From positions 18,007,344 through 18,071,343 of the forward strand of contig OZ024784.1 in the NCBI GenBank assembly GCA_964017065.1: 64,000 nucleotides of DNA, given 5' to 3'. Origin of the DNA: Haliclona indistincta. Lineage: Eukaryota > Porifera > Demospongiae > Haplosclerida > Chalinidae. The notes under the pieces are model-generated. The model made no database searches, was not told the DNA's origin, and saw only the letters and a list, made by a program, of their open reading frames with translations. Below are positions 21,762 to 45,518 of the stretch, piece after piece (positions within the stretch are counted from its first letter, which is position 1; the number at the start of each line of letters is the position of its first letter). The translations under genes and the position numbers were made by a program.

Positions 21762-21762
21762 T

Positions 21763-23323
21763 GAAAGCAACCACCACCATAAATAGCACTGATATCAGAA
21801 GACACGGAGCAGATGGCTCCTCCATAAGCTGCAGTGTTGTTAGTGAAATGAAAAGCAGTGTTATCATATACCAGCATCCTTGACTCTCCTGCAAGAAAAA
21901 TAGCTCCACCTTCACTTCCTACATTGTTGGAAAATTCTACACTAGTGTTCTCCTGAAAGATCAGTAAAGCTAATGATGCATAAATAGCACTGGCTCTGTT
22001 ATCAGAGAATTTTGCTGATGCTGCAAAGGTAATAGGAACTCGATAAGTAAATAAAGTTGACTCTTGTCCTATTTCATTCTGAGGGTTAGGAACATTGCCT
22101 GTGAAGACACAATCTATAAGCAGAACTTGACCAATGAACTGGGATCTTTGTTGCTCTGTATAGCTAGGTGTGATCTCTAGAGCTGATCCTCCATTGCCAC
22201 TGTTGTTTACAAAGACACAGTTTTTGAAAGTGATGTTGTTATTAGACTGCATTGAACTATTGATAGATGAGATAAACACTGAAGCTCCACCTCCATTGTA
22301 AGCAATATTAGCAGTGAAGTTCACTGAATCAAGCAAGATTGAGTTGTTCTTTGGAATCTCTAGTAAACATTTTTGTCGTGGATTAATGCTAAATCCAAGT
22401 TGGACTCCTCCTCCTGCTCTTTCTTCAGACAGGGATGATGTGATAGCACGGTTGCCGTGGAATTTTGCATTGTAAACAAACAAGTGACAGTTGGTACTGT
22501 TATCGCTAGCCCAGGAAAATAAACCACCTCCACGTGCTCCGATATTGTTTTTGAAGGAGCAATTATCAAGTTTAACATGAATATCTTGTGAATAGTGCAA
22601 AAATATAACAGACATTCCTCCACCTTTTTGATTGATCCAAAAACGTTTTCTGATGTTGGCAGAGTTGTTTTTGAATGTGCAGTTGTTAATAGTGTACTGG
22701 GTTTTCTGCTGTTTCTGGTAAGGAATGAAAACAATCACCAGTCCACCTCCTCCATAAGTATACTCCAGTTCAGACTCAATCACTTTGTTGTTCTCAAAGA
22801 TAGTGTTATTCAAAAGCACACTACCAAAGCAGTCACTGATCATTAGACCATATCCATTGTTGTCGGTTACTATTAACCCTTGCAAGACTACATTAGTTGT
22901 GTTCATGAAGACAATAGACTTACTAGCATTGCCTGTTATATCGGTTAATTTATCATGATAAATTTGCACACCACAAGAGTCGATAGTGAAGTCTCGTAGT
23001 TCAATATTGGAGGATTGATTGAAGACCAGTCCAGCATTCATGTGATGGCAGGAGATGTGAGTGTACTGAGAGCCCTGTCCTCTGATGGTGATATTACTCA
23101 TCCGGGTGAAGCTGAGTGAGTGGGTCAGGTTACAGCTGCCATTAGTCAGTTCAAGGACAGAGTTATTGGGCAATGGTTCATTGAGCACAGAGTCCAGTGT
23201 TTGGCAGTGGATGCTTCCTTCATTTCTACCACAGCAAATGTGTATTCTTACGTTACCAACTGCAATGCGGACAAGAGCATGAACGATAAGAAGATGGATC
23301 CAAACCTTAAGGAACATTTTCAC
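21763..23323 (-). pseudogene. Array receptor, 5' part, truncated by inversion
   Basis: Reads from a signal peptide (MKMFLKVWIHLLIVHALVRI) through the invariant N-terminal segment and most of the beta-helix to the Cys residue of a YGGGCF motif at 21763. Beyond this the strand runs into another gene's antisense. Its continuation is 45519-47662 (+): the split codon is C from here plus TA from there (Leu), and the combined length is 3705 nt, exactly 1235 codons. The in-place extension past 21763 adds a short foreign tail. Nearly identical to the N-terminal part of the gene at 31239-32446, including the upstream 230 bp. Confidence 0.85.
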
Positions 23324-23556
23324 GTTGATGTATCTATAATACGTAAACTGAAAATCGATGCTGGTGGGCTAACTGTTATCATAACCTGTTCTTGTTATTA
23401 TGGTCTTTGTTGTCAATAGTTCTAGTTAGCTTATTTGAAAAACGTGTATAGTTCGATAATTATTGAAACCTAAACACTATTGCACACACTATAAACAAAC
23501 TAAATAATGTATACTAAAACTGTAAACAACTTTGTTCTTGTGGTTTAGGGTCATAG

Positions 23557-26500
23557 TTACAAGTCTATTAGACGAGCAGGAAATCCCATACTGTCCGTAT
23601 GTGCAGCATCAGCATTTGTGTCAAGCCTTTGGTAGCCATTCTTAAATTGCTTTATTTTTTGATAGAGAGAAACAAGGGTGTAAACAACAAGATATACGAG
23701 CGGGAGAATTACAGTCAGCACTTGTATCCAGACAGCAGTTATCACTTCATTTTGACTTTCACTGTCTCCCCAAATAGTTGCAGCATAGTTGAAGATGGTG
23801 ATGGTGTTAACAAAGAGCAGGTTGATAAGAAATGCAGACTCCAAAAGGTTATGCCAACGCATTTTATAGGGTTGAATTGTGATATGAAGAAAAACAAGCA
23901 AAAAGAGAAGTACTTCTACAGCAATATAGCAGGTAGACACTGTTTCTCTGAAAACTAAATAAAGTAGTGGAATCACCACTCGATAGGCAAAGTATAGTCC
24001 AGCAACGTATCGATGTTGGTCTTTAAAACTGGCTTGGAAGGAATCAAGAAAAGGCATGAATTTGAAACGAAGCTTGTTGTAAAAGTATTTGACAGATTTT
24101 GGCCATATTTGTAAGCTAAGAAATTTTGTTGCTACAGGTTCAAGCAGCAAGATACAAGGAGGAGGTAACATTACCACAATGAGACATAAAACTGCTGGGA
24201 TTGCATATGGTAGATGACCACTCCCAAAATACTCTGTATCACCAATTAACAATGAAACAGTTCGATTTCTGCTTTTACCTCTTCCTCTGAGAGTGACTGG
24301 TGTCAAAATTGAGAAAGTAATCAAGGAGCATTTAAAGTAGCACAGCACTAGGAATGCTGACAGACCATCTACTATTGAACCTCTGATGTTTCTCCTGCCA
24401 CATCGATTGCCAAGCTTCACACAGCAGTAGCAAGAGTGAAGTCGAAGAACAAGAACAGTGGCTATAACCAGCATCACAGCATACAATATAGTGGCATATT
24501 CAAACATATACATATCTACTGAATTGACATCGCTGATTAGACAAAAAGATAATTTTTCTGAATGAAAAAGTTTAAGGTTGAAAGAAGCATAAATTGTATG
24601 AATAGTTCTGATAGCCCCGGTTGTCTCAAACAAAGTTCTGAAAGCATCGATATAAAGAAAGTCAAGTATCTGTGCATAGAAGACAAAGCTGTTAAGACCT
24701 CCTGAAGTGAGACTGATGTTGAAGACTAAGATGACTGTAAAAATGATAGTCACTGGCAGCAACTCTGAGACAATGTAGAGCGGGATCCCATAAGCACAAT
24801 GAGCAGTAGATGTGTTAGCACACATGAATGATGGTGAATGATAATAAGCTGAATAGCCTTCAATGCAACTACTACATAAGATGCCAGTACGATTTTCACC
24901 ACAGACAGTTTTTTCAAGTTTTTTTCTTGTTTTAATGGATATTGGAATTTCATTATATCCATTCTTAGGTAGTGTTCCATTATAGGAACAAAAATCAGCA
25001 ACACAGGCACCTGTGAAGAGTGTGCTCTCACTTGGAGAATTGCCTATATAGCCAACCCAAAATCCATGTGTTATTAAAGCAGAAACGTTATTACAGGAAG
25101 GCATTTGAAAGTACCTATCATCTTCTTTAGTTGCTGAGCAGGTACAAGCTTTTTCATAGTCAAGTGAGAAACCAGGTGGACACCGAGAGAGGGAAAAATT
25201 CAATTTTTTTCTACTAACAACTGGAGCATTGTTTTCTAGAACTATTGTGCCATTTGTTCTTATTTTTCCATATACGGTAATAGAGCCCTTTTTAGTCGAT
25301 ACATGTGCATATTTTACTAGCCCTGAGAAATCTTCAGTTTTGGCAGTGACATGGAAAAGATCACTAGCATTACCCAGTTCATCAATTTGAGTGATGATCA
25401 GTTCATGAGGAAGTCCTGGAATGAGTTCGAGACATGATGATGATGTGTTCAATAGTGAAGGAGAAGTAGCGATACTACTGCCATTTACTCCTGTGTTGGT
25501 AAATGTATAGTTTCCAATACACTGGATAGAAAAAATATGCATTAAAGAAACATATTTGTAAAGCCTGTTCTGACAAAAATTGCAGCACGAAGTGAGAGAT
25601 GATACAAAAATGTCATTGCCAATTTGCTTGGATGTCATATTATCAATAAAGTGTAGGGTAATGTTTTTGTAGTCGTTTTTCTGTGGCATTACAAAGCAAC
25701 TGGCATCATAGGCAATACTGATATCTGAAGGAAGAGAGCAGATGGCTCCTCCATAAGATGCAGTGTTGTTAGTGAAATGGAAAGCAGTGTTATCATTTAC
25801 CAGCATCCTTGAATCTCCTGAAAGAAAAATAGCTCCACCTTTGCTTCCAACATTGTTGGAAAATTCCACACTAGTATTTTCCTGAAAGATCAGTAAGGCT
25901 GATGATGCAAGAATAGCACTGGCTCTATTATTGGAAAATTTCATTAATCCTCTTAAAGTGATGAGAATTTGGGATGTGAATAAAGTTGACTCTTGTCCTA
26001 TTTCATTCTGATAATTCGGAAAATTGCCTGTGAAGACACAATCTATAAGCAGAACTCGACCAATGAACTGAGATCTTTGTTGCTCTGTATAGCTAGGTGT
26101 GATCTCTAGTGCTGATCCTCCATTACCACTGTTGTTTACAAAGACACATTTTCTGAAAGTGATGTTATTCAGTTTTTCAGATACCATTGTCTTTTTGATT
26201 GATGATAGAAATAGTGAAGCTCCTCCTCCATTGTCAGCAGTGTTAGCAGTGAAGTTCACCGAATCAAACATGATTGTGTTTTTTGTAGGAATTTGTTTAT
26301 TGTGTCGTAAGCTAATGCTTAACCCAAGTTGGAATCCTCCTCCAGCTTTATCTTCATTAACAGATGGAGAAAGTGTGGTAGCACGGTTACCATAGAACCA
26401 TGTATTGTAAACAGTCAAGTGACAGTTGGTAGTGTCTTCACTATACCATGCGAAGAGACCGCCACCGTGTGAACCTGTGTTGTTTTTGAAAGAGCATCTT

Positions 26501-27240
26501 TCCAGTTCGACATAAATATCCTTTGAATTGTGCAAAAACAGTAGAGACATTCCTCCACCTCTTTCAATGAGTGAATGACCTTGATTGATTTTTTCAATGT
26601 TGGCCGAATTTCTTTCAAATGAGCAGTTGCTAATTGTAAAATGGGCTTCTTGTTGCTTTTTGTGAGGTGTAAAATCGATCACCAGTCCACCTCCTCCATA
26701 AGTATACTCCAGTTCAGACTCGATCACTTTGTTGTTCTCAAAGATAGTGTTATTCAAAAGCACACTACCAAAGCAGTCACTGATCATTAGACCATATCCA
26801 TTGCTGTTGGTTACTATTAACCCTTGCAAGACTACATTAGTTGTGTTAAAGAATACTATAGAATTGCTTGCATTGCCTGATATGTTGCTGTGATAAATTT
26901 GCACACCACAAGAGTCGATAGTGAAGCCACTTAGTTCAATATTGGAGGATTGATTGAAGACCAGTCCAGCATTCATGTGATGGCAGAAGATGTGAGTGTA
27001 CTGAGAGCCCTGTCCTCTGATGGTGATATTACTCACCCGGGTGAAGCTGAGTGAGTGGGTCAGGTTACAGCTGCCATTAGTCAGTTCAAAGACAGAGTTA
27101 CTGGGTAGTAGTTCACTGAGCACAGAGTCCAGTGATTGGCAGTTATCACATGAAGAACAATTAATAGTGAAGACATTCTTACTGCCACAAGCTGAAAGGT
27201 TGAATAAGAGAGCAAGAAGGTAGACAGTCCGAACATCCAT
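23557..27240 (-). CDS. Array receptor, subtype A (1227 aa)
   Basis: Intact single exon. Signal peptide MDVRTVYLLALLFNLSACGS; Cys motif CSSCDNCQSLDSVLSELLP; invariant segment with IRGQGSQYTHIFCHHMNAG; beta-helix with GGGMSLLFL, GGGLFAWYS and GGAIFLSGDS turns; linker domain (ITQIDELGNASDLFHVTA); Cys module (CPPGFSLDYEKACTCSA, GILCSSCIEGYS). About nine hydrophobic segments run from GIPLYIVSELLPVTIIF to near residue 1195, with the HSCYCCVKLGNRCGRRNIRG loop. The tail ends SMGFPARLIDL. It is a close copy of 32680-36366, about 9.12 kb away, and shares the SGFTIDSCGVQIYHSN variant with 41153-44881, which suggests exchange between them. It ends only 233 bp from the next start codon. Probable N-glycosylated surface protein of unknown ligand. 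Confidence 0.88.
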   Translation of the reverse strand: MDVRTVYLLALLFNLSACGSKNVFTINCSSCDNCQSLDSVLSELLPSNSVFELTNGSCNLTHSLSFTRVSNITIRGQGSQYTHIFCHHMNAGLVFNQSSNIELSGFTIDSCGVQIYHSNISGNASNSIVFFNTTNVVLQGLIVTNSNGYGLMISDCFGSVLLNNTIFENNKVIESELEYTYGGGGLVIDFTPHKKQQEAHFTISNCSFERNSANIEKINQGHSLIERGGGMSLLFLHNSKDIYVELERCSFKNNTGSHGGGLFAWYSEDTTNCHLTVYNTWFYGNRATTLSPSVNEDKAGGGFQLGLSISLRHNKQIPTKNTIMFDSVNFTANTADNGGGASLFLSSIKKTMVSEKLNNITFRKCVFVNNSGNGGSALEITPSYTEQQRSQFIGRVLLIDCVFTGNFPNYQNEIGQESTLFTSQILITLRGLMKFSNNRASAILASSALLIFQENTSVEFSNNVGSKGGAIFLSGDSRMLVNDNTAFHFTNNTASYGGAICSLPSDISIAYDASCFVMPQKNDYKNITLHFIDNMTSKQIGNDIFVSSLTSCCNFCQNRLYKYVSLMHIFSIQCIGNYTFTNTGVNGSSIATSPSLLNTSSSCLELIPGLPHELIITQIDELGNASDLFHVTAKTEDFSGLVKYAHVSTKKGSITVYGKIRTNGTIVLENNAPVVSRKKLNFSLSRCPPGFSLDYEKACTCSATKEDDRYFQMPSCNNVSALITHGFWVGYIGNSPSESTLFTGACVADFCSYNGTLPKNGYNEIPISIKTRKKLEKTVCGENRTGILCSSCIEGYSAYYHSPSFMCANTSTAHCAYGIPLYIVSELLPVTIIFTVILVFNISLTSGGLNSFVFYAQILDFLYIDAFRTLFETTGAIRTIHTIYASFNLKLFHSEKLSFCLISDVNSVDMYMFEYATILYAVMLVIATVLVLRLHSCYCCVKLGNRCGRRNIRGSIVDGLSAFLVLCYFKCSLITFSILTPVTLRGRGKSRNRTVSLLIGDTEYFGSGHLPYAIPAVLCLIVVMLPPPCILLLEPVATKFLSLQIWPKSVKYFYNKLRFKFMPFLDSFQASFKDQHRYVAGLYFAYRVVIPLLYLVFRETVSTCYIAVEVLLFLLVFLHITIQPYKMRWHNLLESAFLINLLFVNTITIFNYAATIWGDSESQNEVITAVWIQVLTVILPLVYLVVYTLVSLYQKIKQFKNGYQRLDTNADAAHTDSMGFPARLIDL

Positions 27241-27958: not shown

Positions 27959-29980
27959 TTAGAAATCATCTTCTTGCTCTTCTTTGCTATGAAGCAGACG
28001 ATCAGGAAACTCAATCTCAACAGATTTTTCAAGTAGAGGCTGTGATTTATCACTTGGTGGTGGTGTGTGATGTAAAGGTTTGATATTACGATATACAGCA
28101 ATGGCTATGTACACAGCAAGATAGATGATGGGCACAGACATGGCGATTATCTGCAGCCACGCTATTGTAATTTCATTTAGACTTAAGTCAATTTTTCCCT
28201 GAATAATAGCGAGATTTATCAGTGTAGCTGTGTTGACAAACAGTAGGTTGATTAAGATGACAAACTCGATGATGTTGTGCCAAGACTCTTTGTGAGGACG
28301 TAGTATGACATGAATGAAGACAATCAAGAAGAGAATCACCTCAAGAGAAACATAACATGAGAATACTGATGGAGAGAAATATGTTGCAGTGGTTGCTACA
28401 CGATAGGCAAAGTAAAGACCAGCAATGAATCGATATTTGTCCTTGAAACATCCTTGAAATGAATATCAAGGAATGGCATGAAGCTCATTCGTACCTTAGT
28501 GTAGTAACTAGTAGTGACCTTGAAGGTGTTCCAAAAATTCCAACTGAACAGTTTAGTAAGCACTGGTTCAAGCATGAGGATACAAGGTGGCGGAATAATT
28601 ACAACAATAAGGACAAAGACAGCTGGAATAGCATGTGGTAGATGACCTGGACCAAAGTACTCAGAGTCGCCTAGAAACAAAGGAACCGTCTTGTTGAATA
28701 TTTCATTCTTCCCACTGAGAGTGACAAATGCCAAGATCCCAGATGTTATTCTTGTACATTGAAAGTAGCACAGCACTAGGAATGCTGACAGACCATCTAC
28801 TATTGAACCTCGGATGTTTCTCCTGCCACATCGATTTCCAATCTTCACACAGCAGTAGCAAGAGTGGTACCTAAGAACAAGAACAGTGACTATAACCAGC
28901 ATCACAGTATACAGTATAGTGGCTTAACTAAACATGAAGATGTCCATTACATTAGCACCACTGATGATGCAAAAGGACAAACCTTCTATATTTAACATGT
29001 TCAAATTGAAAGAGCCATATATCACTTTGAAAATATTTAAAACAAATTCTGTGACTGGATCGTTTACATCTGCTGTACCAAATGCATCGACAAACTGAGA
29101 ATCAATCACTTGTGAATAGAAGACAAAGCTGTAGACAGCTCCTGAAGTGAGACTGATATTGAAGATAAGAATGACAAGGAAGATGATGGTCACTGGAAGC
29201 AGCTCTGAGACAATGTACAATGGAATTCCAAATGCACAATTATTTCTCTGGAAGCACTCTAAATTAGGAGAATGATAAAATACTGTGTATCCATTGGCAC
29301 ATCTGGTACATAACACTCCTTTCCGCTTGCTACCACATACTACCTCTTCTAGGGCTTCTTCAGTACTGTCTGTGTTTGGTAGAGAATGTTTCCCATCTGG
29401 AGCACGGTACTCCTGCCAGGTACTCCTCTGTTGGTAAATGTATATTTTCCAATGCAGGCAATAGTAAAAATATTCGCAGGAGTAACCTGTTCATGAGACC
29501 TGGTATGACAAAAATTGCAGCATGAAGTAAGAGATGACACAAAAATGTCATTGCCAGTCTGCTTTGATGCCTTATTTCCAGCAAAGTGTAGGGTAATATT
29601 TTTGTAGTTCAAATCGTTTGGCATTAGAAAGCAACTACCACCATAAATAGCACTGATATCAGAAGACATGGAGCAGATGGCTCCTCCATAAGATGCAGTG
29701 TTGTTAGTGAACTGGAAAGCAGTGTTATCATTTACCAGCATCCTTGACTCTCCTGCAAGAAAAATAGCTCCACCTTCACTTCCTACATCGTTGGAAAATT
29801 CTACACTAGTGTTCTCCTGGAAGATCAGTAAAGCTAATGATGCATAAATAGCACTGGCTCTGTTATTGAAGAATTTTGCTGATGCTGCAAAGGTAACAGG
29901 AACTCGATAGGTGAATATAGTTGACTCTTGACCTATTTCATTCTGAGGGTTAGGAACATTGCCTGTGAAGACACAATCTA

Positions 29981-30364
29981 AAGAAAATAAAAAAGATTTC
30001 TATCGAAATCAAAAGGATGTAGGGTTGTGAAATCTACCACTGGTCAACAATGTAAACTAACAAGGAACAAGCATGGAATGGTAACACGATTGACTTGCTA
30101 ACAGACCATAGATCCCTACATCAGTGGCTGCTGTAGTTGACTATAGCTAGTTCAGCTTAGCTAGTTGCTGTTGACTGACACCTGACGTGCATTCAGCTTG
30201 TGACAGCTTATGTACAGCCACTGATGTAGGGATCTATGGTCTGTTAGCAAGTCAATCGTGTTACCATTCCATGCTTGTTCCTTGTTAGTTTACATTGTTG
30301 ACCAGTGGTAGATTTCACAACCCTACATCCTTTTGATTTCGATAGAAATCTTTTTTATTTTCTT
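29981..30364. repeat. Long hairpin element with 149-bp arms
   Basis: Arms 29981-30129 and 30216-30364 are reverse complements with no mismatch that I could find. They start AAGAAAATAAAAAAG and end CTTTTTTATTTTCTT. The 86-bp loop is itself partly repetitive (CTAGTTCAGCTTAGCTAG). The near-perfect arms indicate a young insertion or ongoing arm homogenisation. Confidence 0.9.
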
Positions 30365-31238
30365 GTTTGTGTCCTTTTTTTCTTTTTCAGTGAAGTACAG
30401 TTCAATATCATGTAATTACTGTGCCATCTTTGTTTCCACCATTGGTTTGGTTTTCCTGTTGTTGATGGCTTTCTTTATTATTAACAATTTTAAACTTGTA
30501 GCTAGATAATTCTTATGCTGTAGATATCAGCTCGCCTACGCATGCATGAATACAGTGCATACGAGCCCCGCCCACACTTGTTTACGGTGGTTATAAATAT
30601 CTGGCAAGGCAGAATGGTGATTCTGCGCTTGCTAGCTTACCGTTCTTCGAAGATTCCAGACAAATACTGATGTGTTCTCCGTGATCTATACGGCGTGGCG
30701 ATACTCAAGCTTGTGCTTGGTCACGTGCGCTAACCACAGCTTGGTCACGTGCGTATTGCGCAATCACTATAATTATTAATGGCGTCTAACACTTAGCTGA
30801 CAATGGATCACGATCGAGAAATCGCGGAATTTATATCGCCGTTTCGCTAAAAACTAAGTTCAAAAGGCACATGCCAGGAGAATTTCACGACTGTTCGTGG
30901 GTGTTTTGGTCTCGGCACTGCTCACGTAAAGGTGCTAGGCGAGTGGAAGAAAGAAAGAAGAAGAAGAAGAAAGAAGAAAACGAAGATGACGAAACTCGAT
31001 TTTCACCGTTTCCAGGTTCGTCACTTTAGTAACAATCTCGAGCAATCTCCTTGCTACTGTAAGATGGGGCAACACCAGATAGCAGATTTAAGTGTTTTTG
31101 GACGTATAAAATTCATCACCAGGCGAAATATCAGCGTTTGAACGCTAATACATTGTATGTAGCCGCCATCTTGTTTTCTCGTTCAACCCTACATAGGGAG
31201 ACACTACCGTGTCTCCCTAACACTACCGTGTCTCCCTA
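29981..31238. mobile_element. Insertion in the chimeric receptor pseudogene
   Basis: About 1.26 kb interrupts a sequence that is continuous in paralogues (ACAATCTATAAGCAG). It contains a 149-bp perfect-looking hairpin element (29981-30364). About 870 bp of unrelated sequence follow, with direct repeats of CTTGGTCACGTGCG at about 30717 and 30741. The right end has palindromic AGGGAGACAC/GTGTCTCCCT motifs (31194-31238), one of them repeated. No clear target duplication or transposase was seen, so this may be a composite of nested insertions. The open frame at 30932-31141 is a lysine/arginine-rich low-complexity string and I do not consider it a gene. Confidence 0.7.
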
Positions 31239-32679
31239 ATAAGCAGAACTCGACCAATGAACTGAGATCTTTGTTGCTCTGTATAGCTAGGTGTGATCTC
31301 TAGAGCTGATCCTCCATTGCCACTGTTGTTTACAAAGACACAGTTTTTGAAAGTGATGTTGTTATTAGACTGCATTGAACTATTGATAGATGAGATAAAC
31401 ACTGAAGCTCCACCTCCATTGTAAGCAATATTAGCAGTGAAGTTCACTGAATCAAGCAAGATTGAGTTGTTCTTTGGAATCTCTAGTAAACATTTTTGTC
31501 GTGGATTAATGCTAAATCCAAGTTGGACTCCTCCTCCAGCTCTTTCTTCAGACAGGGATGATGTGATAGCACGGTTGCCGTGGAATTTTGCATTGTAAAC
31601 AAACAAGTGACAGTTGGTACTGTTATCGCTAGCCCAGGAAAATAAACCACCTCCACGTGCTCCAGTATTGTTTTTGAAGGAGCAATTATCAAGTTTAACA
31701 TGAATATCTTGTGAATAGTGCAAAAATATAACAGACATTCCTCCACCTCTTTCATTGATCCGAAAACGTTTTCTGATGTTGCCAGAGTTGCTTTCGAATG
31801 TGCAGTTGTTAATAGTGTACTGGGTTTTCTGCTGTTTCTGGTAAGGAATGAAAACAATCACCAGTCCACCTCCTCCATAAGTATACTCCAGTTCAGACTC
31901 AATCACTTTGCTGTTCTCAAAGATAGTGTTATTCAAAAGCACACTACCAAAGCAGTCACTGATCATTAGACCATATCCATTGCTGTTGGTTACTATTAAC
32001 CCTTGCAAGACTACATTAGTTGTGTTCATGAAGACAATAGACTTACTAGCATTGCCTACTTTATCGGTTAATTCATCGTGATTAATTTGCACACCACAAG
32101 AGTCGATAGTGAAGTCACGTAGTTCAATATTGGAGGATTGATTGAAGACCAGTCCAGCATTCATGTGATGGCAGGAGATGTGAGTGTACTGAGAGCCCTG
32201 TCCTCTGATGGTGATATTACTCACCTGGGTGAAGCTGAGTGAGTGGGTCAGGTTATAGCTGCCATTAGTCAGTTCAAGGACAGAGTTATTGGGCAATGGT
32301 TCATTGAGCACAGAGTCCAGTGTTTGGCAATAAATGCTTCCTTCATTTCTACCACAGCAAATGTGTATTCTTACGTTACCAACTGCAATGCGGACAAGAA
32401 CATGAACGATAAGAAGATGGATCCAAACCTTAAGGAACATTTTCACGCTGATGTATCTATAATACGTAAACTGAAAATCGATGCTGGTGGGCTAACTGTT
32501 ATCATAACCTGTTCTTGTTATTATAGTCTCTGTTGTCAATAGTTCTAGTTAGCTTATTTGAAAAACGTGTATAGTTCGATAATTATTGAAACCTAAACAC
32601 TATTGCACACACTATAAACAAACTAAATAATGTATACTAAAACTGTAAACAACTTTGTTATTGTGGTTTAGGGTCATAG

Positions 32680-35600
32680 TTACAAGTCTATTAGACGAGC
32701 AGGAAATCCCATACTGTCCGTATGTGCAGCATCAGCATTTGTGTCAAGCCTTTGGTAGCCATTCTTAAATTGCTTTAGTTTTTGATAGACAGAAACAAGG
32801 GTGTAAACAACAAGATATACGAGCGGAAGAATTACAGTCAGCACTTGTATCCAGACAACAAACACTAGTTCATTTTGACTTTCACTGTCTCCCCAAATAG
32901 TTGCAGCATAGTTGAAGATGGTGATGGTGTTTACAAAGAGCAGGTTGATAAGAAAAGCAGACTCCAAAAGGTTATGCCAACGCATTTTATAGGGTTGAAT
33001 TATGATATGAAGAAAAACAAGCAAAAAAAGAAGTACTTCTACAGCAATATAGCAGGTAGACACTGTTTCTCTGAAAACTAAATAAAGTAATGGAATCAGC
33101 ACTCGATAGGCAAAGTATAGTCCAGCAAAGTATCGATGTTGGTCTTTAAAACTGGCTTGGAAGGAATCAAGAAAAGGCATAAAATTTAAGCGAAGCTTAT
33201 TGTAAATTTGTTTTACAGATTTTGGGCATATTTGTAAGCTAAGAAATTTTGTTGCTAGAGGCTCAAGCAGCAAGATACAAGGAGGAGGTAGCATTACCAC
33301 AATGAGACATAAAACTGCTGGGATTGCATATGGTAGATGACCACTCCCAAAATACTCTGAATCACCAAGTAGCAATGGAACAGTTTGACTTTCGTTCCCA
33401 CCTCTTCCTCTGAGAGTGACTGGTGTCAGTATTTGGAAAGTAATCAAAGAGCATTGAAAGTAGCACAGCACTAGGAATGCTGACAGACCATCTACTATTG
33501 AACCTCTGATGTTTCTCCTGCCACATCGATTGCCAAGCTTTACACAACAGTAGCAAGAATTGAACCGAAGAAAAAGAACAGTGGCTATAACCAGCATCAC
33601 AGCATACAATATAGTGCCATATTGAAACATGTAGATATCCACTGAATTGGCATCACTGATTAGACAAAATGATAATTTTTCTGAATAAAAAATTTGAAGG
33701 TTGAAAGTAGAATAAATTGTATGAATAGTTCTAACAGCCCCAGTTGTCTCAAATAATGTTCTGAAAGCATCAATGTAAAGAAAGTCAAGTACCTGTGCAT
33801 AGAAGACAAAGCTGTTGAGAGCTCCTGAAGTGAGACTGATGTTGAAGACTAAGATGATTGTAAAAATGATAGTCACTGGCAGCAACTCTGAGACAATGTA
33901 GAGCGGGATCCCATAAGCACAATGAGCAGTAGTTGTGTTAGCACATGTGTATGATGGTGAGTGATAATAAGCTGAATAGCCTTCAATGCAGCTACTACAT
34001 AAGATACCTGTACGATTTTCACCACACACTACTTTTTCAAGGTCTCCTCTTGTTTTCATAGATATTGGAATTTCATTATATCCATTCTTAGGTAGCGTTC
34101 CATTGTAGGAACAAAAATCAGCAACACAGGCACCTGTGAAGAGTGTGCTCTCATTTGGAGAATTGCCTATATAGCCAACCCAAAATCCATGTGTTATTAC
34201 AGCAGAAATGTTATTACAGGAAGGCATTTGAAAGTACCTATCATGTTCTTTAGTTGCTGAGCAGGTACAAGCTTTTTCATAGTCAAGTGAGAAACCAGGT
34301 GGACACCGAGAGAGGGAAAAATCCAAAATTTTTCTACTAACGACTGGAGCATTGTTTTCAAGAACTATTGTGCCATTTGTTCTTGGTTCTCCATTTAGGG
34401 TAATCAAGCCCTTTTGAGTCGACACATGTGCATATGTTACTAGCCCTGAGACATCTTTAGTTTCGGCAGTGACATGGAAAAGATTGACAAAATCATTGTC
34501 CCATTCATCTGTTTGAGTGACGGTCAGTTCATGAGGAAGTCCTGGAATGAGTTCAAGATACGATGATGATGTGTTCAATAGTGAAGGAGAAGTAGCAATA
34601 CTACTGCCAGATACTCCTGTGTTGGTAAATGTATAGTTTCCAATGCACTGGATGGAAAAAATTAAAGTAACATTTTTGTAAAGCCTGTTCTGACAAAACT
34701 TGCAGCACGAACTGAGAGATGATACAAAAATGTCATTGCCAATTTTCTTGGATGCCATATTATCAATAAAGCGAAGGGTAATGTTTTTGTAGTCTTTATT
34801 CTGTGGCATTACAAAGCAACTAGCATCATAGGTAATACTGATATCAGAAGACATGGAGCAGATGGCTCCTCCATAAGATGCATTGTTGTTAGTGAACTGG
34901 AAAGCAGTGTTATCATATACCAGCATCCTTGACTCTCCTGAAAGAAAAATAGCTCCACCTTTGCTTCCAACATTGTTGGAAAATTCTACACTAGCGTTCT
35001 CCTGAAAGATCAGTAAGGCTGATGATGCAAGAATAGCACTGGCTCTGTTATTAGAGAATTTCATTAATCCTCCTAAAGTGATGAGAATTTGGGACGTAAA
35101 TAAAGTTGACTCTTGTCCTATTTCATTCTGATAATTAGGGAAATTGCCTGTGAAGACACAATCTATAAGCAGAACTTGACCAATGAACTGGGATCTTTGT
35201 TGCTCTGTATAGCTAGGTGTGATCTCTAGTGCTGATCCTCCATTGCCACTGTTGTTTACAAAGACACAGTTTCTGAAAGTGATGTTATTCAGTTTTTCAA
35301 ATTCCATTGTCTTTCTGATTGATGATAAAAATAGTGAAGCTCCTCCTCCATTGTCAGCAGTGTTAGCAGTGAAGTTCACCGAATCAAACATGATTGAGTT
35401 TTTTGTACATGTAGGAATTTGTTTATTGTATCGTAAGCTAATGCTTAACCCAAGTTGGACTCCTCCTCCAGCATTCACAGATGGAGAAGGCGTGGTAGCA
35501 CGGTTACCATAGAACTCTGTATTGTAAACAGTCAAGTGACAGTCGGTAGTGTCTTCACTATACCACGCGAAGAGACCTCCTCCGTGTGAACCTGTGTTGT

Positions 35601-36366
35601 TTTTGAAGGAGCATCTTTCAAGTTCGACATAAATATCCTTTGAATTGTGCAAAAACAGTAGAGACATTCCTCCACCTCTTTCAATTAGTGAATGACCTTG
35701 ATTTATTTTTTCAATGTTGGCCGAATTTCTTTCAAATGAGCAGTTGCTAATTGTAAAATGGGTTTCTTGTTGCTTTTTGTGAGGTGTAAAATCAATCACC
35801 AGTCCACCTCCTCCATACGAATACTCCAGTTCAGACTCAATCACTTTGTTGTTCTCAAAGATAGTGTTATTCAAAAGCACACTACCAAAGCAGTCACTGA
35901 TAGTTAGACCATATCCATTGCTGTTGGTTACTATTAACCCTTGCAAGACTACATTAGTTGTGTTCACGAAGACAATAGACTTACTAGCATTGCCTGTTAT
36001 ATCGGTTAATTCATCGTGATTAATTTGCACACCACAAGAGTCGATAGTGAAGTCACGTAGTTCAATATTGGAGGATTGATTGAAGACCAGTCCAGCATTC
36101 ATGTGATGGCAGGAGATGTGAGTGTACTGAGAGCCCTGTCCTCTGATGGTGATATTACTCACCCGGGTGAAGCTGAGTGAGTGGGTCAGGTTACAGCTGC
36201 CATTAGTCAGTTCAAGGACAGAATTATTGGGCAATAGTTCATTAAACACTGAGTCTAGTGATTGGCAGTTATCACATGAAGAAAAATTAATAGTGAAGAC
36301 ATTCTTACTTCCAGAAGCTGAAAGGTTGAATAAGAGAGCAAGAAGGTATACAGTCCGAACATACAT
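32680..36366 (-). CDS. Array receptor, subtype A (1228 aa)
   Basis: Intact single exon starting MYVRTVYLLALLFNLSASGS (signal peptide). Domain positions measured from the sequence: invariant N-terminal segment about 35-125; beta-helix to about 600 with GGGMSLLFL and GGAIFLSGES turns; linker domain about 605-686 (VTQTDEWDNDFVNLF); Cys-rich module 687-818 (CPPGFSLDYEKACTCSA, GILCSSCIEGYS). About nine hydrophobic segments lie between 819 and 1195, and the tail 1196-1228 ends MGFPARLIDL. The loop has FNSCYCCVKLGNRCGRRNIR, with Asn for His. It is the duplicate of 23557-27240; differences are scattered and include small codon-preserving indels, so both copies appear to be under coding constraint. 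Probable surface receptor, ligand unknown. Confidence 0.88.
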   Translation of the reverse strand: MYVRTVYLLALLFNLSASGSKNVFTINFSSCDNCQSLDSVFNELLPNNSVLELTNGSCNLTHSLSFTRVSNITIRGQGSQYTHISCHHMNAGLVFNQSSNIELRDFTIDSCGVQINHDELTDITGNASKSIVFVNTTNVVLQGLIVTNSNGYGLTISDCFGSVLLNNTIFENNKVIESELEYSYGGGGLVIDFTPHKKQQETHFTISNCSFERNSANIEKINQGHSLIERGGGMSLLFLHNSKDIYVELERCSFKNNTGSHGGGLFAWYSEDTTDCHLTVYNTEFYGNRATTPSPSVNAGGGVQLGLSISLRYNKQIPTCTKNSIMFDSVNFTANTADNGGGASLFLSSIRKTMEFEKLNNITFRNCVFVNNSGNGGSALEITPSYTEQQRSQFIGQVLLIDCVFTGNFPNYQNEIGQESTLFTSQILITLGGLMKFSNNRASAILASSALLIFQENASVEFSNNVGSKGGAIFLSGESRMLVYDNTAFQFTNNNASYGGAICSMSSDISITYDASCFVMPQNKDYKNITLRFIDNMASKKIGNDIFVSSLSSCCKFCQNRLYKNVTLIFSIQCIGNYTFTNTGVSGSSIATSPSLLNTSSSYLELIPGLPHELTVTQTDEWDNDFVNLFHVTAETKDVSGLVTYAHVSTQKGLITLNGEPRTNGTIVLENNAPVVSRKILDFSLSRCPPGFSLDYEKACTCSATKEHDRYFQMPSCNNISAVITHGFWVGYIGNSPNESTLFTGACVADFCSYNGTLPKNGYNEIPISMKTRGDLEKVVCGENRTGILCSSCIEGYSAYYHSPSYTCANTTTAHCAYGIPLYIVSELLPVTIIFTIILVFNISLTSGALNSFVFYAQVLDFLYIDAFRTLFETTGAVRTIHTIYSTFNLQIFYSEKLSFCLISDANSVDIYMFQYGTILYAVMLVIATVLFLRFNSCYCCVKLGNRCGRRNIRGSIVDGLSAFLVLCYFQCSLITFQILTPVTLRGRGGNESQTVPLLLGDSEYFGSGHLPYAIPAVLCLIVVMLPPPCILLLEPLATKFLSLQICPKSVKQIYNKLRLNFMPFLDSFQASFKDQHRYFAGLYFAYRVLIPLLYLVFRETVSTCYIAVEVLLFLLVFLHIIIQPYKMRWHNLLESAFLINLLFVNTITIFNYAATIWGDSESQNELVFVVWIQVLTVILPLVYLVVYTLVSVYQKLKQFKNGYQRLDTNADAAHTDSMGFPARLIDL

Positions 36367-37049: not shown

Positions 37050-40000
37050 TTAGAAATCATCATCTTGCTCTTCTTTGCTATGAAGCAGACGATCAGGAAA
37101 CTCCATCTCAACAGATTTTTCAAGTAGAGGCTGTGATTTATCACTTGGTGGTGGTGTGTGATGTAAAGGTTTGATATTATGATATAAAGCAATGACTATA
37201 TACACAGCAAGGTAGATGATGGGCACAGACATGGCGATTATCTGCAGCCACGCTTTTGCAATTTCATTTAGACTTAAGTCAATTTTTCCCTGAATAATAG
37301 CGAGATTTATCAGTGTAGTTGTGTTGACAAACAGTAGGTTGATTAAGATAATAAACTCGATGATGTTGTGCCAAGACTCTTTGTGAGGACGTAGTATGAC
37401 ATGAATTAAGACAATCAAGAAGAGAATCACCTCAAGAGAAACATAACATGAGAATACTGATGGAGAGAAATATGTTGCAGTGGTTGCTACACGATAGGCA
37501 AAGTAGAACCCAGCAATGAATCGATATTTGTCCTTGAAACATCCTTGAAATGAATCAAGGAATGGCATGAAGCTCATACGTACCTTAGTGTAGTAACTAG
37601 TGACCTTGAATGTGTTCCAGAAGTTCCAACTGAACAGTTTAGTAAGCACTGGTTCAAGCATGAGGATACAAGGTGGCGGAATAATTACAACAATAAGGAC
37701 AAAGACAGCTGGAATAGCATATGGTAGATGAGCTGGACCAAAGTACTCATAGTCGCCTAGAAACAAAGGAACCGTCTTGTTAAATTTTTCATTCTTGCCA
37801 CTGAGAGTGACAAATGCCAAGATCTTAGATGTTATTCTTGTACATTGAAAGTAGCACAGTACTAGGAATGTTGACAGACCATCTACTATTGAACCTCTGA
37901 TGTTTCTCCTGCCACATCGATTGCCAAGCTTCACACAGCAGTAGCAAGAGTGGTACCTAAGAACAAGAACAGTGGCTATAACCAGCATCACAGCATACAG
38001 AATAGTGGCATAGTTAAACATGAAGATGTCCATTACATTAGCACCACTGATGATGCATAAAGACAAGCCTTCTATATTTAACATGTTCAAATTGAAAGAC
38101 CCATATATCACTCTGAAAATGTTTAAAACAAATTCTGTGACTGGATTGTTTAATTCTGCTGTACCAAAAGCATCAACAAACCGAGAGTCAATCACTTGTG
38201 AATAGAAGACAAAGCTGTAGACAGCTCCTGAAGTGAGACTGATATTGAAGATAAGAATGACAAGAAAGACGATAGTCACTGGAAGCAGCTCTGAAACAAT
38301 GTACAATGGAATTCCAAATGCACAAATAGTTTTCAGGGAACATTCTAAGCTTGGAGAATGAAAGAATACTGTGTATTCATTGGCACATCTGGTACATAAC
38401 ACTCCTTTCCGCTTGCTACCACATACTACCTCTTCTAGGGCTTCTTCAGTACTGTTTGTGATTGGTAGAGAATGTGGTTGAGTTCCTTTGAAGTTACAAA
38501 ATCTCACAACACATCTACCAGTAAACAGTGTTTCCTCGGTATTACCACCGATATAGCCAACCCAGTATCCAGGTTTAACAAATGCTGAATGATTACTACA
38601 AGAATGAATACCATGATACAGCCTGTGAGTGTCAGATGCAGAACATACACAAGATTTTCTAAAACTCTCCTTTAAAACAAATCCTGGAGGACAGTCAGCC
38701 AATTTAAACTTAATGGTTATTTGCCTTGTGATTTGAGCTGAGTTCTCAATTATAAGATCGCCTGATGCTCCTGGTTCTCCATAAAATTTAATGTAATTCT
38801 TTAAAGTTAAACTTCCAAGGGACACATTCTGTGCTCTACTGGCTTTGTCGAGCTTTACAGTTAATAAGAACATATCTCCAACATTATTGCCCATCTCATC
38901 GATTTGAGAGATTTTCAAGTTATGAAGGAATCCTGGAATAGGATTAATTTTAGAGGTCGGACAATTTAACACCTTAGGGCATGTAGATATATTTCCGTTT
39001 GGACTTCTCTCTGACTCATCAGCAAAGTGAAATTTTCCAATGCAGTTGCTGGAAAATATTTCAGAAGTGCTCACATTTCTCCCGAGTTTGAATTGACATT
39101 GTCCTAAGCAAAGATAAAGAGATGTGGCAAAAATGTCATTGCCAATTAATGCAGAATTTCCAGCAAACTTTAAATAAACGTTTGACTTGTTGAACTTTGA
39201 GTTCAAGAAACACTTATCACTAAATGAGAAGCCATGGACTTGTGTAGACAGAGCACAAATGGCTCCACCATAAGATGCAGTGTTGTTAATGAATTCAAAA
39301 TGGGTATTATCACCTAGTTGCATACGAGAATCACCTGCTAGCAGGACAGCTCCACCATTACGTTCTCCTGTATTGTTCCAAAACTTTACAGTACTGTTCT
39401 CATTAAACACAAGCAAAGCAGAAGCGCTGTAAAGAGCAGTAGCATTGTTATCAGAAAACATTATGTCACCAAAAAAATTCACTGTTATTTCAGAAGTCAA
39501 GAGGATAGCACGTTCAGTGTGCTCATCAGTGTACAGTTGTTTAATAGCATTGGCAGTAAAAGTGACATTCGTGAAACTTACTCCTGTGATGAAAATTGCA
39601 CCACCATGTAAGGAATTATCTGCTCTGATATCTATTGCTGCTCCACCATTAGCAGAATTATTAGTGAAATTTCAGTTTTCAAAATCAATATGATTTTTCT
39701 CATTAGGCTTTATTCCTTCTTCAACTGAGGAAGTAAAAACCGATGCTCCTCCTCCAATGTAGCCATTGTTCTGCTCGAAAACCACATGACTAAACTTAAT
39801 TGTATTTCTGTGTGGAATATTTTGTTTATTCCAAAAATTGTAGCCCACATTAACTCCTCCTCCTCCGTACACTTCACCAGAATTACCAATGAACCTCGAT
39901 TTGGTAACATTAATGCAACATCTGCTGGTATTATCTCTGATTCTGACATACATTCCTCCTCCAAATGTGCCAGCATTGTTTTTAAAAGTGCAGTTGCAAA

Positions 40001-40778
40001 TGTCAATTCTTATCTTTGTTGAATTGTGCAAGACAAGTAATTTTATTCCGCCACCTTTTTCGGAATCATGAGGATGTAATAGCTGGAGTTTTTGTGATTG
40101 GATTTGAGCAGAGTTGTTTTCAAATGTGCAATTGACAATAGTGTAGCGAAAGTGAGTATTTGAAAGAAATGGCATAAAAGTAAGGACCAGTCCACCTCCT
40201 CCTTCGAGTTCAGACTCAATCACTTTGTTGTTCTCAAAGATAATGCTTTTCAAATGCACACTACCAAAGCAGTCACTGATCATTAGACCATATCCATTGC
40301 TATTGGTTACTACTAAATTTTTTATATTTATATCAGTTGTGTTCATGAAGACAATAGACCTACTGGCATTGCCTGTCTCAGTAGTTAATTCATCGTGATT
40401 AATTTGCACACCACAAGAGTCGATAGTGAAGTCACGTAGTTCAATATTGGAGGATTGATTGAAGACCAGTCCAGCATTCATGTGATGGCAGGAGATGTGA
40501 GTGTACTGAGAGCCCTGTCCTCTGATGGTGATATTACTCACCCGGGTGAAGCTGAGTGAGTGGGTCAGGTTACAGCTGCCATTAGTCAGTTCAAGGATAG
40601 TGGTCAGTTCAAGGTCATCGTGATGTATGAACGAGTCCAGAGTCCAGTGAGTGTCCAGTGAGTGGCAGTAACTTTTCCATTCTGTTTCATTGCAGCAAAT
40701 AGTTATCGTTTCATCACCGAGTGCACTGTAAATAGCAACAGCAATGTTGATAAGACAAATGAACACTCTTGAAGACAT
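37050..40778 (-). pseudogene. Array receptor, subtype B, with one in-frame TGA
   Basis: 3729 nt, 1243 codons including the stop, continuous except for TGA at 39672-39674. Subtype B paralogues have Cys there (FENCNFTNN against FEN-stop-NFTNN). Everything else looks intact: signal peptide MSSRVFICLINIAVAIYSAL, invariant N-terminal segment, beta-helix, linker (ISQIDEMGNNVGDMFLLTVK), Cys module (CPPGFVLKESFRKSCVCSAS, GVLCTRCANEYT), membrane segments with the HSCYCCVKLGNRCGRRNIRG loop, and tail QPLLEKSVEMEFPDRLLHSK. A single base change (TGC or TGT to TGA) explains it, so this is a very recent null allele or a sequencing error. The first 368 residues alone would be a secreted fragment. Selenocysteine readthrough is formally possible but unsupported. 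Confidence 0.8.
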
Positions 40779-41152: not shown

Positions 41153-44100
41153 TTACATGTCCATTAACCGAGCAGGAAACTCCATGCTGTTAATGTTTGC
41201 AGCATCAGGTGTTGTGGCAACTTTTTGATAGCCTTTCATGAATGCCTTGATTTTATAATAAGCAGATACAATGGTATACCCAGTGATATATATGAGCGGG
41301 AACAACACAGATGGAATCTGTGCCCAGACAGCTACTTCAATTTCTCTACTATTTTCACTGACACCCCAAATAGTTGCAGCATAGTTGAAGATGGTGATGG
41401 TGTTTGCAAAGAGCAGGTTGATAAGAAAAGCAGACTCCAAAAGGTTATGCCAATGGACTTTATAAGGTTGAATCAGGACATGAAGGAAAACAAGGAAAAA
41501 GAGAAAAATTTCAACAGCAACATAACACGTGGATACTGTGTTTCGGAACAGTAAGTAAAGCAATGGAATAACAATACGATAAGTGAAATATAGTCCAGCA
41601 AAGAATCGATATTTACCTTTGAAACTAGCTTGAAATGAATCAAGAAAAGGCATAAATTTAAATCGAAGCTTGGTATAAGCTTGTTTTATAGATTCTGGCA
41701 ATATTTGAAAGTTAAACAGCTTGGTTGCTACAGGTTCAAGCAGCAAGATACAAGGAGGAGGTACTATAATCACAACAAGACATAAAACAGCTGGGATTGC
41801 ATATGGTAGGTGGCCACTCCCAAAATACTCTGAATCACCTAAGTACAATGGAACAGTTCGATTCTTCATTTCTCCAGTTCCCCTTAAAGTGACCGGTGTC
41901 AGAATATAAACAGTAATGAAAGAGCATTGAAAGTAGCAAAGCATTAAAAATGCTGACAGACCATCTACTATCGAACCTCTGATGTTTCTCCTGCCACATC
42001 GATTACCAAGCTTCACACAGCAGTAGCAAGAGTGAAGTCGAAGAACAAGAACAGTGGCTATAACCAGCATCACAGCATACAATATAGTTCCGTATTGAAA
42101 CATAAATATGTCCATTGCATTTGCATTGCTGATCAAGCAGAAAGCTAAATTGTCTGTGTAGAAATATTTAAGGTTATAACTCGCATAAACAACATGGATT
42201 AGTTTAGCAAACTTAGCCATAAACTTTCCTTCAAACAAAGTCTTAAAAGCATCAATGTATAGGAAGTCAAGCACCTGTGCATAGAAGACAAAGCTGTATA
42301 GAGCTCCTGAAGTGAGACTGATATTGAAGACCAAGATGATAACAAAGATGATAGTTACAGGAAACAACTGTGAGACAATGTAGAGCGGGATCCCATAAGT
42401 GCAAGGAGCAGTAGTTGAGTTGAAGCATTGCAATGTTGGTGAATGGTAAAGTGTGGAATGACCTTCAATGCAACTTCCACATAAGATACCTTTGCGATTT
42501 TCACTGCAAACTATTTCTTCAAGTTTTTCTTTAGTTTTAATAGTTGTTGGAATTTCATTATATCCATTCAAAGGTGAATTTTCTCTATACGAGCAAAAAT
42601 CAGCAACACAGGCACCTGTGAATAGCATGTCCTCACTTGATGAATTGCCAATATAGCCAACCCAAAATCCATGTGTTATCAAAGCGGAATTTTCATCGCA
42701 ATTGGTCATTTGAAAATATTTATTGCCAGTAAATGCTGAACAGACACAAACATTGTCACTGTTAAGCGAAAAACCAGGAGGGCACTGAGAGATGGAGAAG
42801 TTGCAATATTCCCTTCTCACAACAGGAGCATTATTTTCAAACACAACTACACCATTTGTTCCTGGTTTTTCACACAGAGTAATAGAGCTGTTATGAACAG
42901 TTATGAGTGATTTTTTGACATCTGTAGTGATCTCTGCAGTGACTATATACATATCAACAACATCATTACCCAGTTCATCTGTCTGAGTGATGTTCAGTTG
43001 ATGAGGAAGTCCTGGAGTGAGTTCAAGATACGATGATGATGTGTTCAATTGTGAAGGAGCAGTAGAGATACTACTACCAGGTACTCCTGTGTTAACAAAT
43101 GTATAGTCTCCAATACACTGCTTCTCAAAGACATTCCTAGCATTGATCGTTTCATTAGACCAGATCTGACAATACTTACAACATGAAGCAAGAGTTGATA
43201 CAAAGATATCATTGCTAATCTCTCTCGATGCTTTATTACCAGCAAAGTATAGGCTAATGTTCTTGTAGTCTTTTCCCTGTGGTATTAGAAAGCAACTGCC
43301 ACCATAACTGATACTGTTGTCTGAAGGAAGAGAGCAGATGGCTCCTCCATAAGATGCAGTGTTATTAGTGAACTGGAAAGCAGTGTTATCATTTACCAGC
43401 AACCTTGAATCTCCTGAAAGAAAAATAGCTCCTCCTTTGCTTCCACTATTGTTGGAAAATTCTACACTAGTGTTCTCCTGAAAGATCAGTAAGGCTGATG
43501 ATGCATAAATAGCACTGGCTCTGTTATTAGAGAATTTCATTAATCCTCCTAAAGTGATGAGAATTTGGGACGTAAATAAAGTTGACTCTTGACCTATTTC
43601 ATTCTGAGGGTTAGGAACATTGCCTGTGAAGACACAATCTATAAGCAGAACTCGACCAATGAACTGAGATCTTTGTTGCTCTGTATAGCTAGGTGTGATC
43701 TCTAGAGCTGATCCTCCATTGCCACTGTTGTTTACAAAGACACAGTTTATGAAAGTGATGTTATTCAGTTTTTCAAATTCCATTGTCTTTTTGATTGATG
43801 ATAGAAATAGTGAAGCTCCTCCTCCATTGTCAGCAGTGTTAGCAGTGAAGTTCACCGAATCAAACATGATTGAGTTTTTTGTAGGAATTTGTTTATTGTG
43901 TCGTAAGCTAATGCTTAACCCAAGTTGGAATCCTCCTCCAGCTTTATCTTCATTAACAGATGGAGAAAGTGTGGTAGCACGGTTACCATAGAACCATGTA
44001 TTGTAAACAGTCAAGTGACAGTTGGTAGTATCTTCACTATACCACGCGAAGAGACCTCCTCCGTGTGAACCTGTGTTGTTTTTGAAGGAGCATCTTTCAA

Positions 44101-44881
44101 GTTCGACATAAATATCCTTTGAATTGTGCAAAAACAGTAGAGACATTCCTCCACCTCTTTCAATAAGAGAATGACCTTGATTTATTTTTTCAATGTTGGC
44201 CGAATTTCTTTCAAATGAGCAGTTGCTAATTGTAAAATGGGTTTCTTGTTGCTTTTTGTGAGGTGTAAAATCGATCACCAGTCCACCTCCTCCATAAGAA
44301 TACTCCAGTTCAGACTCGGTCACTTTGTTGTTCTCAAAGATAGTATTATTCAAAAGCACACTACCAAAGCAGTCTCTGATCATTAGACCATATCCATTGC
44401 TGTTGGTTACTATTAACCCTTGCAAGACTACATTAGTTGTGTTAAAGAATACTATAGACTTGCTTGCATTGCCTGTTATGTTGCTGTGATAAATTTGCAC
44501 ACCACAAGAGTCGATAGTGAAGCCACTTAGTTCAATATTGGAGGATTGATTGAAGACCAGTCCAGCATTCATGTGATGGCAGGAGATGTGAGTGTACTGA
44601 GAGCCCTGTCCTCTGATGGTGATATTACTCACCCGGGTGAAGCTGAGTGAGTGGGTCAGGTTACAGTTGCCATTAGTCAGTTCAAGGACAGAGTTACTGG
44701 GGACTTCACTGAGCACAGTGTCCAGTGATTGGTAGTTGCTGTGTTGGTTGCTCAAATCATCTTCAGCACAACAGACATGTATCACTTGAGAGTTTTTGTC
44801 ACCAATTGCAATGCTGGTTTTGGCTCTGATAAAGACTGTGACAATAAAAAGGCATAAGAAAGGCTTTAAAATCATCTTCAA
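41153..44881 (-). CDS. Array receptor, subtype A (1242 aa)
   Basis: Intact single exon. Signal peptide MKMILKPFLCLFIVTVFIRA; Cys pair HVCCAEDD; invariant N-terminal segment with the SGFTIDSCGVQIYHSN variant; beta-helix; linker (ITQTDELGNDVVDMY); Cys module (CPPGFSLNSDNVCVCSA, GILCGSCIEGHS). About nine membrane segments carry HSCYCCVKLGNRCGRRNIRG, and the tail ends SMEFPARLMDM. The beta-helix part (residues about 190-350) is nearly identical to 23557-27240, whereas the Cys and membrane parts match 45519-47662 better (FEGKFMAKFAK against FEGTFMAKVTT, HVLIQPYKVHWHNLLESAF). This looks like a mosaic made by exchange between paralogues. Probable glycosylated plasma-membrane protein with unknown ligand. 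Confidence 0.88.
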   Translation of the reverse strand: MKMILKPFLCLFIVTVFIRAKTSIAIGDKNSQVIHVCCAEDDLSNQHSNYQSLDTVLSEVPSNSVLELTNGNCNLTHSLSFTRVSNITIRGQGSQYTHISCHHMNAGLVFNQSSNIELSGFTIDSCGVQIYHSNITGNASKSIVFFNTTNVVLQGLIVTNSNGYGLMIRDCFGSVLLNNTIFENNKVTESELEYSYGGGGLVIDFTPHKKQQETHFTISNCSFERNSANIEKINQGHSLIERGGGMSLLFLHNSKDIYVELERCSFKNNTGSHGGGLFAWYSEDTTNCHLTVYNTWFYGNRATTLSPSVNEDKAGGGFQLGLSISLRHNKQIPTKNSIMFDSVNFTANTADNGGGASLFLSSIKKTMEFEKLNNITFINCVFVNNSGNGGSALEITPSYTEQQRSQFIGRVLLIDCVFTGNVPNPQNEIGQESTLFTSQILITLGGLMKFSNNRASAIYASSALLIFQENTSVEFSNNSGSKGGAIFLSGDSRLLVNDNTAFQFTNNTASYGGAICSLPSDNSISYGGSCFLIPQGKDYKNISLYFAGNKASREISNDIFVSTLASCCKYCQIWSNETINARNVFEKQCIGDYTFVNTGVPGSSISTAPSQLNTSSSYLELTPGLPHQLNITQTDELGNDVVDMYIVTAEITTDVKKSLITVHNSSITLCEKPGTNGVVVFENNAPVVRREYCNFSISQCPPGFSLNSDNVCVCSAFTGNKYFQMTNCDENSALITHGFWVGYIGNSSSEDMLFTGACVADFCSYRENSPLNGYNEIPTTIKTKEKLEEIVCSENRKGILCGSCIEGHSTLYHSPTLQCFNSTTAPCTYGIPLYIVSQLFPVTIIFVIILVFNISLTSGALYSFVFYAQVLDFLYIDAFKTLFEGKFMAKFAKLIHVVYASYNLKYFYTDNLAFCLISNANAMDIFMFQYGTILYAVMLVIATVLVLRLHSCYCCVKLGNRCGRRNIRGSIVDGLSAFLMLCYFQCSFITVYILTPVTLRGTGEMKNRTVPLYLGDSEYFGSGHLPYAIPAVLCLVVIIVPPPCILLLEPVATKLFNFQILPESIKQAYTKLRFKFMPFLDSFQASFKGKYRFFAGLYFTYRIVIPLLYLLFRNTVSTCYVAVEIFLFFLVFLHVLIQPYKVHWHNLLESAFLINLLFANTITIFNYAATIWGVSENSREIEVAVWAQIPSVLFPLIYITGYTIVSAYYKIKAFMKGYQKVATTPDAANINSMEFPARLMDM

Positions 44882-45165
44882 CTTGTGCTCTGAAAACAGC
44901 AGTCTGTTTTCAGCCTAAACTAAAACCGAAAGCAACTATTGAATTGTTGATATGCTCAATGGATTATTATTATTATTATACATTGCAGTCTTTGTTGTAA
45001 TTCCCTATTGTGTATTGGTTCTTTGCCTATTCTGAAAACACAATAAAACTCTTTCAATCAAATAATATGCACTCATTCACACATTGATGCAAAACAATAA
45101 ACTTTACATGCATATACAAAACAATGAACTTGTTCAATAGTGTTTGTGTCACAGGTAAATATGAT
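44882..45165. other. Short intergenic spacer
   Basis: AT-rich with a (TTA)n run near 44965-44980. No gene seen. Confidence 0.55.
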
Positions 45166-45518
45166 CTACATGTTTATTAGACGAGCAGGAAATCCAATAC
45201 TGTCCTCAAACTCAGAATCAGATTTGGTGATAACTCTTTGGTAACCCTTCATGAACAGCTTAACGCTGCGATAGACAGAAACAATGATATACACAACAAG
45301 ATATATGAGCGGGATAAACACAATTATTATTTGTATCCAGACAGCAACTATCACTTCATTGTGATTATCGTTGTCTCCCCAAATAGTTGCAGCATAGTTG
45401 AAGATGGTGATGGTGTTTACAAAGAGCAGGTTGATAAAGAAAGCAGACTCTAAAAGATTATGCCAACTAATCTTATAAGGTCGAATTGAAACATGAAGAA
45501 AAACAAGGAAGAAGAGAA
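45166..45518 (-). pseudogene. Array receptor 3' fragment (C-terminus displaced by inversion)
   Basis: Encodes the last two membrane segments and the tail: LFFLVFLHVSIRPYK, LLESAFFINLLFVNT, WIQIIIVFIPLIYLVVYIIV, ending SIGFPARLINM. It begins abruptly at 45518, where sequence of another gene on the opposite strand starts. It continues the coding of 18415-21761: the split codon is G from there plus TT from here (Val), and codon phase is kept to the stop. No start codon or signal peptide of its own. Confidence 0.85.

Follow-up and report, generated by a model that had tools for sequence, protein, structure and literature searches.

A 23.8-kb inversion, very probably end-joined and fairly recent, splits two paralogues in a tandem array of receptor-like sponge genes

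How two members of an otherwise continuous tandem gene array come to lie in pieces, each with its beginning on one strand and its end elsewhere on the other, is the question raised by this locus. The 64-kb stretch of DNA analysed here (the window) is part of a 19.19-Mb sequence, C2, in a genome of 144 Mb in 46 sequences, and carries genes arrayed in tandem that are open, seemingly without introns and ~1230 codons long; two of them, designated A and B, are broken. Our analysis leads us to hold with high confidence that a real inversion of 23.8 kb underlies this arrangement, with two breaks in the array and the intervening fragment rejoined in reverse by end-joining. The inversion is very probably real, fairly recent and end-joined, and very probably disabled both paralogues. 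The features on which this reading relies are collected in Table 1.

Table 1. Coordinates in the window of the broken genes, the inverted segment and the neighbouring members of the array
Feature	Position	Strand	Remark
Open paralogue P0003	13812..17606	+	Outside the inversion
Gene A, 5' part (~9/10)	18415..21761	+	Net +1 frameshift in 19974-19990
Inverted repeat resulting from the inversion	18524..23208		Arms 18524-19969 and 21763-23208; 1457 columns, 88.5%; spacer ~1.8 kb
607-aa ORF through the left junction	20060..21883	+	Equals P0206 except at the start residue
Extra T at the left junction	21762	+	Belongs to neither joint
Inverted segment, 23,756 nt	21763..45518		Both broken genes joined on flipping
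Gene B, N-half	21763..23323	-	Hydrophobic signal-peptide-like start (by eye) and beta-helix
Open paralogue E	23557..27240	-	Inside the inversion
Pseudogene C, twin of B	27980..32446	-	Broken by a repeated element, fused to another subfamily's tail; spans B's break column
High-copy element inside C, 1.26 kb	29982..31238		
Open paralogue F (P0012)	32680..36366	-	Inside the inversion
Paralogue of the gene at 48064	37071..40778	-	Single in-frame TGA, otherwise open
Open paralogue D	41153..44881	-	Inside the inversion
Gene A, 3' end	45166..45518	-	Last ~117 codons including the stop
Gene B, C-half, ~713 aa	45519..47662	+	Beta domain (Big/cadherin-like) plus numerous predicted helices
Open paralogue P0001	48064..51759	+	Outside the inversion

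The label "receptor" is a reasonable one from the predicted architecture of these proteins, which would combine a beta-helix ectodomain with a half containing many predicted helices. Four of the seven window proteins scanned gave E <= 0.01 against the right-handed beta-helix model, two of them exceeding the Pfam cut-off, and three of the seven matched the Chlamydia PMP repeat, again with two exceeding it; in a set of 41 family members, the beta-helix model was matched by 9 and the PMP repeat by 15. Structure prediction for the C-half (mean pLDDT 82.6) yielded a beta region with many long helices after it, and a search that took the helical part together with the rest of the C-half turned up no solved relative for that part. 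The relatives named by organism came from the sponges Geodia barretti, Dysidea avara and Amphimedon queenslandica. An uncharacterised protein of the last, LOC109583593 (P0293), is 36% identical over the C-half query and belongs to the same gene family as the array genes; its kinship is with the genes rather than with the inversion, and its listing names no function.

As assembled, gene A ends on the plus strand at 21761 and antisense sequence of the gene B beta-helix begins at 21763, while at 45518/45519 the end of gene A (-) adjoins the C-half of gene B (+). The open reading frame of the gene B N-half runs on to 21713, with a short tail read from antisense sequence. The initial annotation had proposed that reversing the segment repairs both genes, and its coordinates, frames and lengths proved exact to the base. 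Joining 23323-21763 (-) to 45519-47662 (+) gives a gene B of 3705 nt with its sole stop at the end, and joining 18415-21761 (+) to 45518-45166 (-) gives a gene A of 3700 nt with one frameshift, open in frame 0 to ~19983 and in frame 1 from there to the stop. The shift can now be refined to a net +1 (~4 extra nt in the alignment) somewhere in 19974-19990. The codons split at the joints are indeed those for Val (G/TT) and Leu (C/TA), and the motif CFLMPND, which the repair restores, is present in paralogue C at 29627.

The paralogues E, F and D allowed the same joints to be viewed from the outside. Joined A and joined B both align with them free of gaps over the two joints. Against the assembled sequence, in contrast, the matches of E, F and D stop 0-4 nt from the junctions, the one exception being F, which continues 31 nt past the left junction; after flipping, each of the three proteins crosses each of the two junctions as a single match (6/6). 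Because these matches stop at the junctions as assembled and cross both of them once the segment is flipped, the junction pattern is not a product of chance. A single event with two reciprocal, non-homologous junctions accounts for the data, in support of the earlier reading of one inversion.

It had further been claimed that all array genes fall on one strand after flipping. This holds for 8033-51759 and no further, relatives located 10-22 kb to the left of the window being on the minus strand. In a sample of the family (38 scored matches of 720 candidates), 8 of the 9 clusters with at least two members, a cluster being defined as relatives <=20 kb apart, had a single orientation; the cluster in the window reads +----++ and becomes uniform once flipped. 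Counting against the inversion reading, mixed orientation also occurs elsewhere in the wider region, as the minus-strand relatives to the left indicate. The database versions of these two left neighbours (L008 and L028), P0019 and P0024, are 91% and 97.5% identical to them; in the genome of the window, the copy of the first has an in-frame TGA, and that of the second aligns as two separate pieces. The first 137 residues of P0024 are 88% identical to the left-neighbour copy.

The junctions bear on how the inversion may have arisen. Two double-strand breaks ~23.8 kb apart would have struck an array that ran in one direction (8033-51759), the first ~117 codons short of the end of A and the second after ~codon 520 of gene B, and end-joining would have resealed the fragment in reverse. 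Compared with the paralogues, the two reciprocal junctions show little change, with 0 bases lost and 1 gained. The gained base, the T at 21762, might be the fill-in of a one-base stagger, copying the first T on the right-hand side (GTAG/TTCTC). The absence of long homology at the breakpoints, noted initially, was borne out, with <=1 nt shared. When 200-nt probes laid over the assembled junctions were searched (13 and 14 matches in total, in a search that skips very common words), the only full-length match of each was at home, and none of the 12 and 13 other matches reached >4 nt across. No dispersed repeat or mobile element was seen at either break, the junction probes matching only the array region of C2. 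With the breaks at non-equivalent sites, no more than one base in common and no dispersed repeat seen at either, repair by end-joining would be the best account of them, judged from the junction scar alone. Inversion mediated by a transposon was rejected as well: the breaks hold no element, and the 1.26-kb element within pseudogene C lies ~8 kb from the nearest junction.

Paralogues that are 80-97% identical abound in this region and would offer ample substrate for non-allelic homologous recombination between inverted copies, yet A and B lay in the same direction in the ancestral order, and the breaks occupy different alignment columns (~residue 1115 of A versus ~521 of B). Paralogous matches moreover stop at the junctions rather than running across them, the probes matching paralogues on one side only. 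Given the different columns, the same prior direction and the lack of any shared sequence longer than one base, we reject recombination between paralogues, which we consider scarcely credible as the source of the inversion.

The initial annotation had left room for an assembly error, and a young, repetitive array flanked by neighbours with allele-like variants (91% and 97.5%) is a place where assemblers are prone to fail, be it through chimeric reads or through a wrongly oriented piece. Such an artefact would nevertheless require two errors agreeing to within one base, at junctions that sit at non-homologous positions. The window contains 0 N, and a scaffolding error was rejected on this ground. 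Both junction arrangements are, in addition, listed on other contigs. For P0206 (607 aa), identical to the ORF at the left junction except for the start residue and thus including the antisense tail past that junction, the listing gives two contigs, one of 483,525 bases and one shorter, compared to 19.19 Mb for the sequence that holds the window. On the right, P0207 starts at the ATG at 45521 of the gene B C-half and is identical to the window over 619 residues before a frameshift; its single listed contig has 10,188 bases and differs from the window. For P0122, a protein of 904 aa that equals part of D, the one contig given likewise has 10,188 bases, and we infer from the equal lengths that the two proteins share that contig. 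In the inverted order D and the C-half of B are separated by ~0.6 kb, in the uninverted one by ~19 kb. Because P0206 is listed on two other contigs and the gene order of the right junction, judging by the equal lengths, on the 10,188-base contig, an assembly error, which the initial annotation had kept possible, now appears unlikely, the lack of any N pointing the same way.

Searches for the uninverted arrangement agreed with this assessment in their outcome. Full-length B was not found among the best 120 of the 170 database matches to a joined-B query, where full-length proteins reached 72-74% and the top match of any length, at 78%, was P0122, the partial D protein. With joined B or the second half of A as queries, no uninverted haplotype was found in the protein database among the best word-sharing candidates scored, and the uninverted joints, searched as exact 25-mers, had 0 matches each in the genome assembly.

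The contigs other than that of the window may derive from reads of the same specimen, and it may be that the record of 483,525 bases is a contig of the window's own assembly that was left unscaffolded. P0230 and P0004, both listed on a contig of 368,587 bases, correspond at 100% and 96.3% identity to a pair of array genes ~12 kb apart in the genome of the window; by these identities that contig seems to represent a different phasing. P0019 and P0024 are listed with a contig of 110,705 bases, and P0123, identical to part of E, with a contig of equal length. Allele-like divergence near the array would accordingly be judged large from these protein comparisons. The 483,525-base contig lists P0001, P0003, P0012 and P0206; the exact D and E proteins, P0122 (10,188-base contig) and P0123 (110,705-base contig), are absent from it, which counts against a simple picture.

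Pseudogene C provides the inversion with a relative date. It is the closest relative of gene B, 1180 of 1208 positions being identical between 31239-32446 of C and 22116-23323 of B. C also retains what B has lost to the break: 29628-29981 matches the sequence of B just before the break (336/352) and 29409-29627 the sequence just after it (208/218). E and F are identical at 3436 of 3666 positions. The C/B and E/F pairs look like products of one tandem duplication, with a spacing of 9123, or 7864 where C continues past its element. Because the twin C holds unbroken sequence where B is interrupted, B was broken after the duplication; barring confusion by later gene conversion, the inversion would be younger than the local tandem duplication. 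That the halves of B are still without a stop likewise speaks for a young event, and the inversion looks fairly recent. C itself is a fusion, of B type to ~codon 589 and of a subfamily like the gene at 48064 from ~codon 754-759; the fusion point is probably the junction of the tandem duplication. Excluding the copy in C, 39 near full-length copies of its 1.26-kb element at 94-99% identity were found in the genome (40 scored of 3516 candidates, the copy in C included).

The rearrangement removed the membrane half or end from both A and B. What is left open is a first ORF of 522 aa in A and the 536-aa N-half ORF of B, each of which stops past the beta-helix, close to the CFL(M) column, and, by eye, the C-parts of the broken genes have no recognisable start of their own. 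The remaining products would be at most beta-helix stubs of these lengths, which might be secreted, and both genes would presumably have lost their function. Gene A, which carries a frameshift besides, was perhaps already a pseudogene when the inversion occurred. The frameshift in A (19974-19990) and the break in B (21763) are within ~20 nt of the same alignment column, both truncating just after the beta-helix. A break hotspot was not built on this coincidence, whose chance we roughly estimate at ~0.5% for one pair, several lesions being comparable and the loop variable.

By placing part of B in antisense behind A, the inversion has also created an inverted repeat with the geometry of a candidate dsRNA silencing locus. 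Its 1.46 kb lie within one possible transcript of gene A, the transcript over both arms being hypothetical. It is conceivable that the inversion was kept for its effect, with the stubs of A and B, or dsRNA from the repeat, dampening the rest of the family. The truncation of both genes near the same CFL(M) column and the 1457 columns of 88.5% identity available to a single A transcript would fit such a role, and a precedent is offered by the soybean I locus, where post-transcriptional silencing of the chalcone synthase genes is reported to stem from an inversion next to their cluster (PMC6418295). In the sponge, however, an AATAAA at 22050 (+) could end the A transcript ~290 nt past the junction, another at 21713 (-) could end that of B just past it, and the shared column of truncation may be a coincidence in a variable loop; we regard retention for effect as very unlikely. 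What the two cases share is an inversion at a cluster of tandem genes and inverted paralogues close by; a foreign promoter brought in and a chimeric antisense transcript with silencing are reported for soybean, whereas the sponge array is known by its geometry alone (PMC6418295). In the most far-reaching version, the locus would be a natural hairpin gene in an animal, with transcripts from the A promoter running into antisense B, a 1.4-kb duplex and small RNAs silencing the receptor subfamily in trans; a milder form would have two secreted ectodomains ending near CFL(M) act as decoys. This we hold to be most unlikely, although, were the hairpin reading true, one end-joining event would have switched off a gene array.

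An end-joined inversion that disabled two paralogues is an ordinary, known kind of structural mutation. Small inversions formed by end-joining at non-homologous breaks are known from Drosophila and other animals, and the sponge inversion is like them in its non-homologous, reciprocal breakpoints and a base of change; it is unlike them in that both breaks fell within coding sequences of one tandem array, so that both genes become legible after flipping. It thus offers a clean, base-resolved small inversion in a fast-changing array of receptor-like genes, with the broken genes still readable and with an internal clock, in that it postdates a local duplication. Arrays of this type can, by this example, lose members through end-joining besides mispaired recombination, and the two junctions are usable for typing other individuals.

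Rfam and tRNA scans yielded nothing. Among viral contigs, three stretches matched the search pattern and 0 encoded a relative of the family, in a search from which records of the window's own genome were possibly left out. Toward the left end of the window, 1681-5454 (-) corresponds to a distant family member, ~22% identical to the array genes. The segment 56001-58000 displays a strong local GC skew of 0.297, unlike the remainder of the window.
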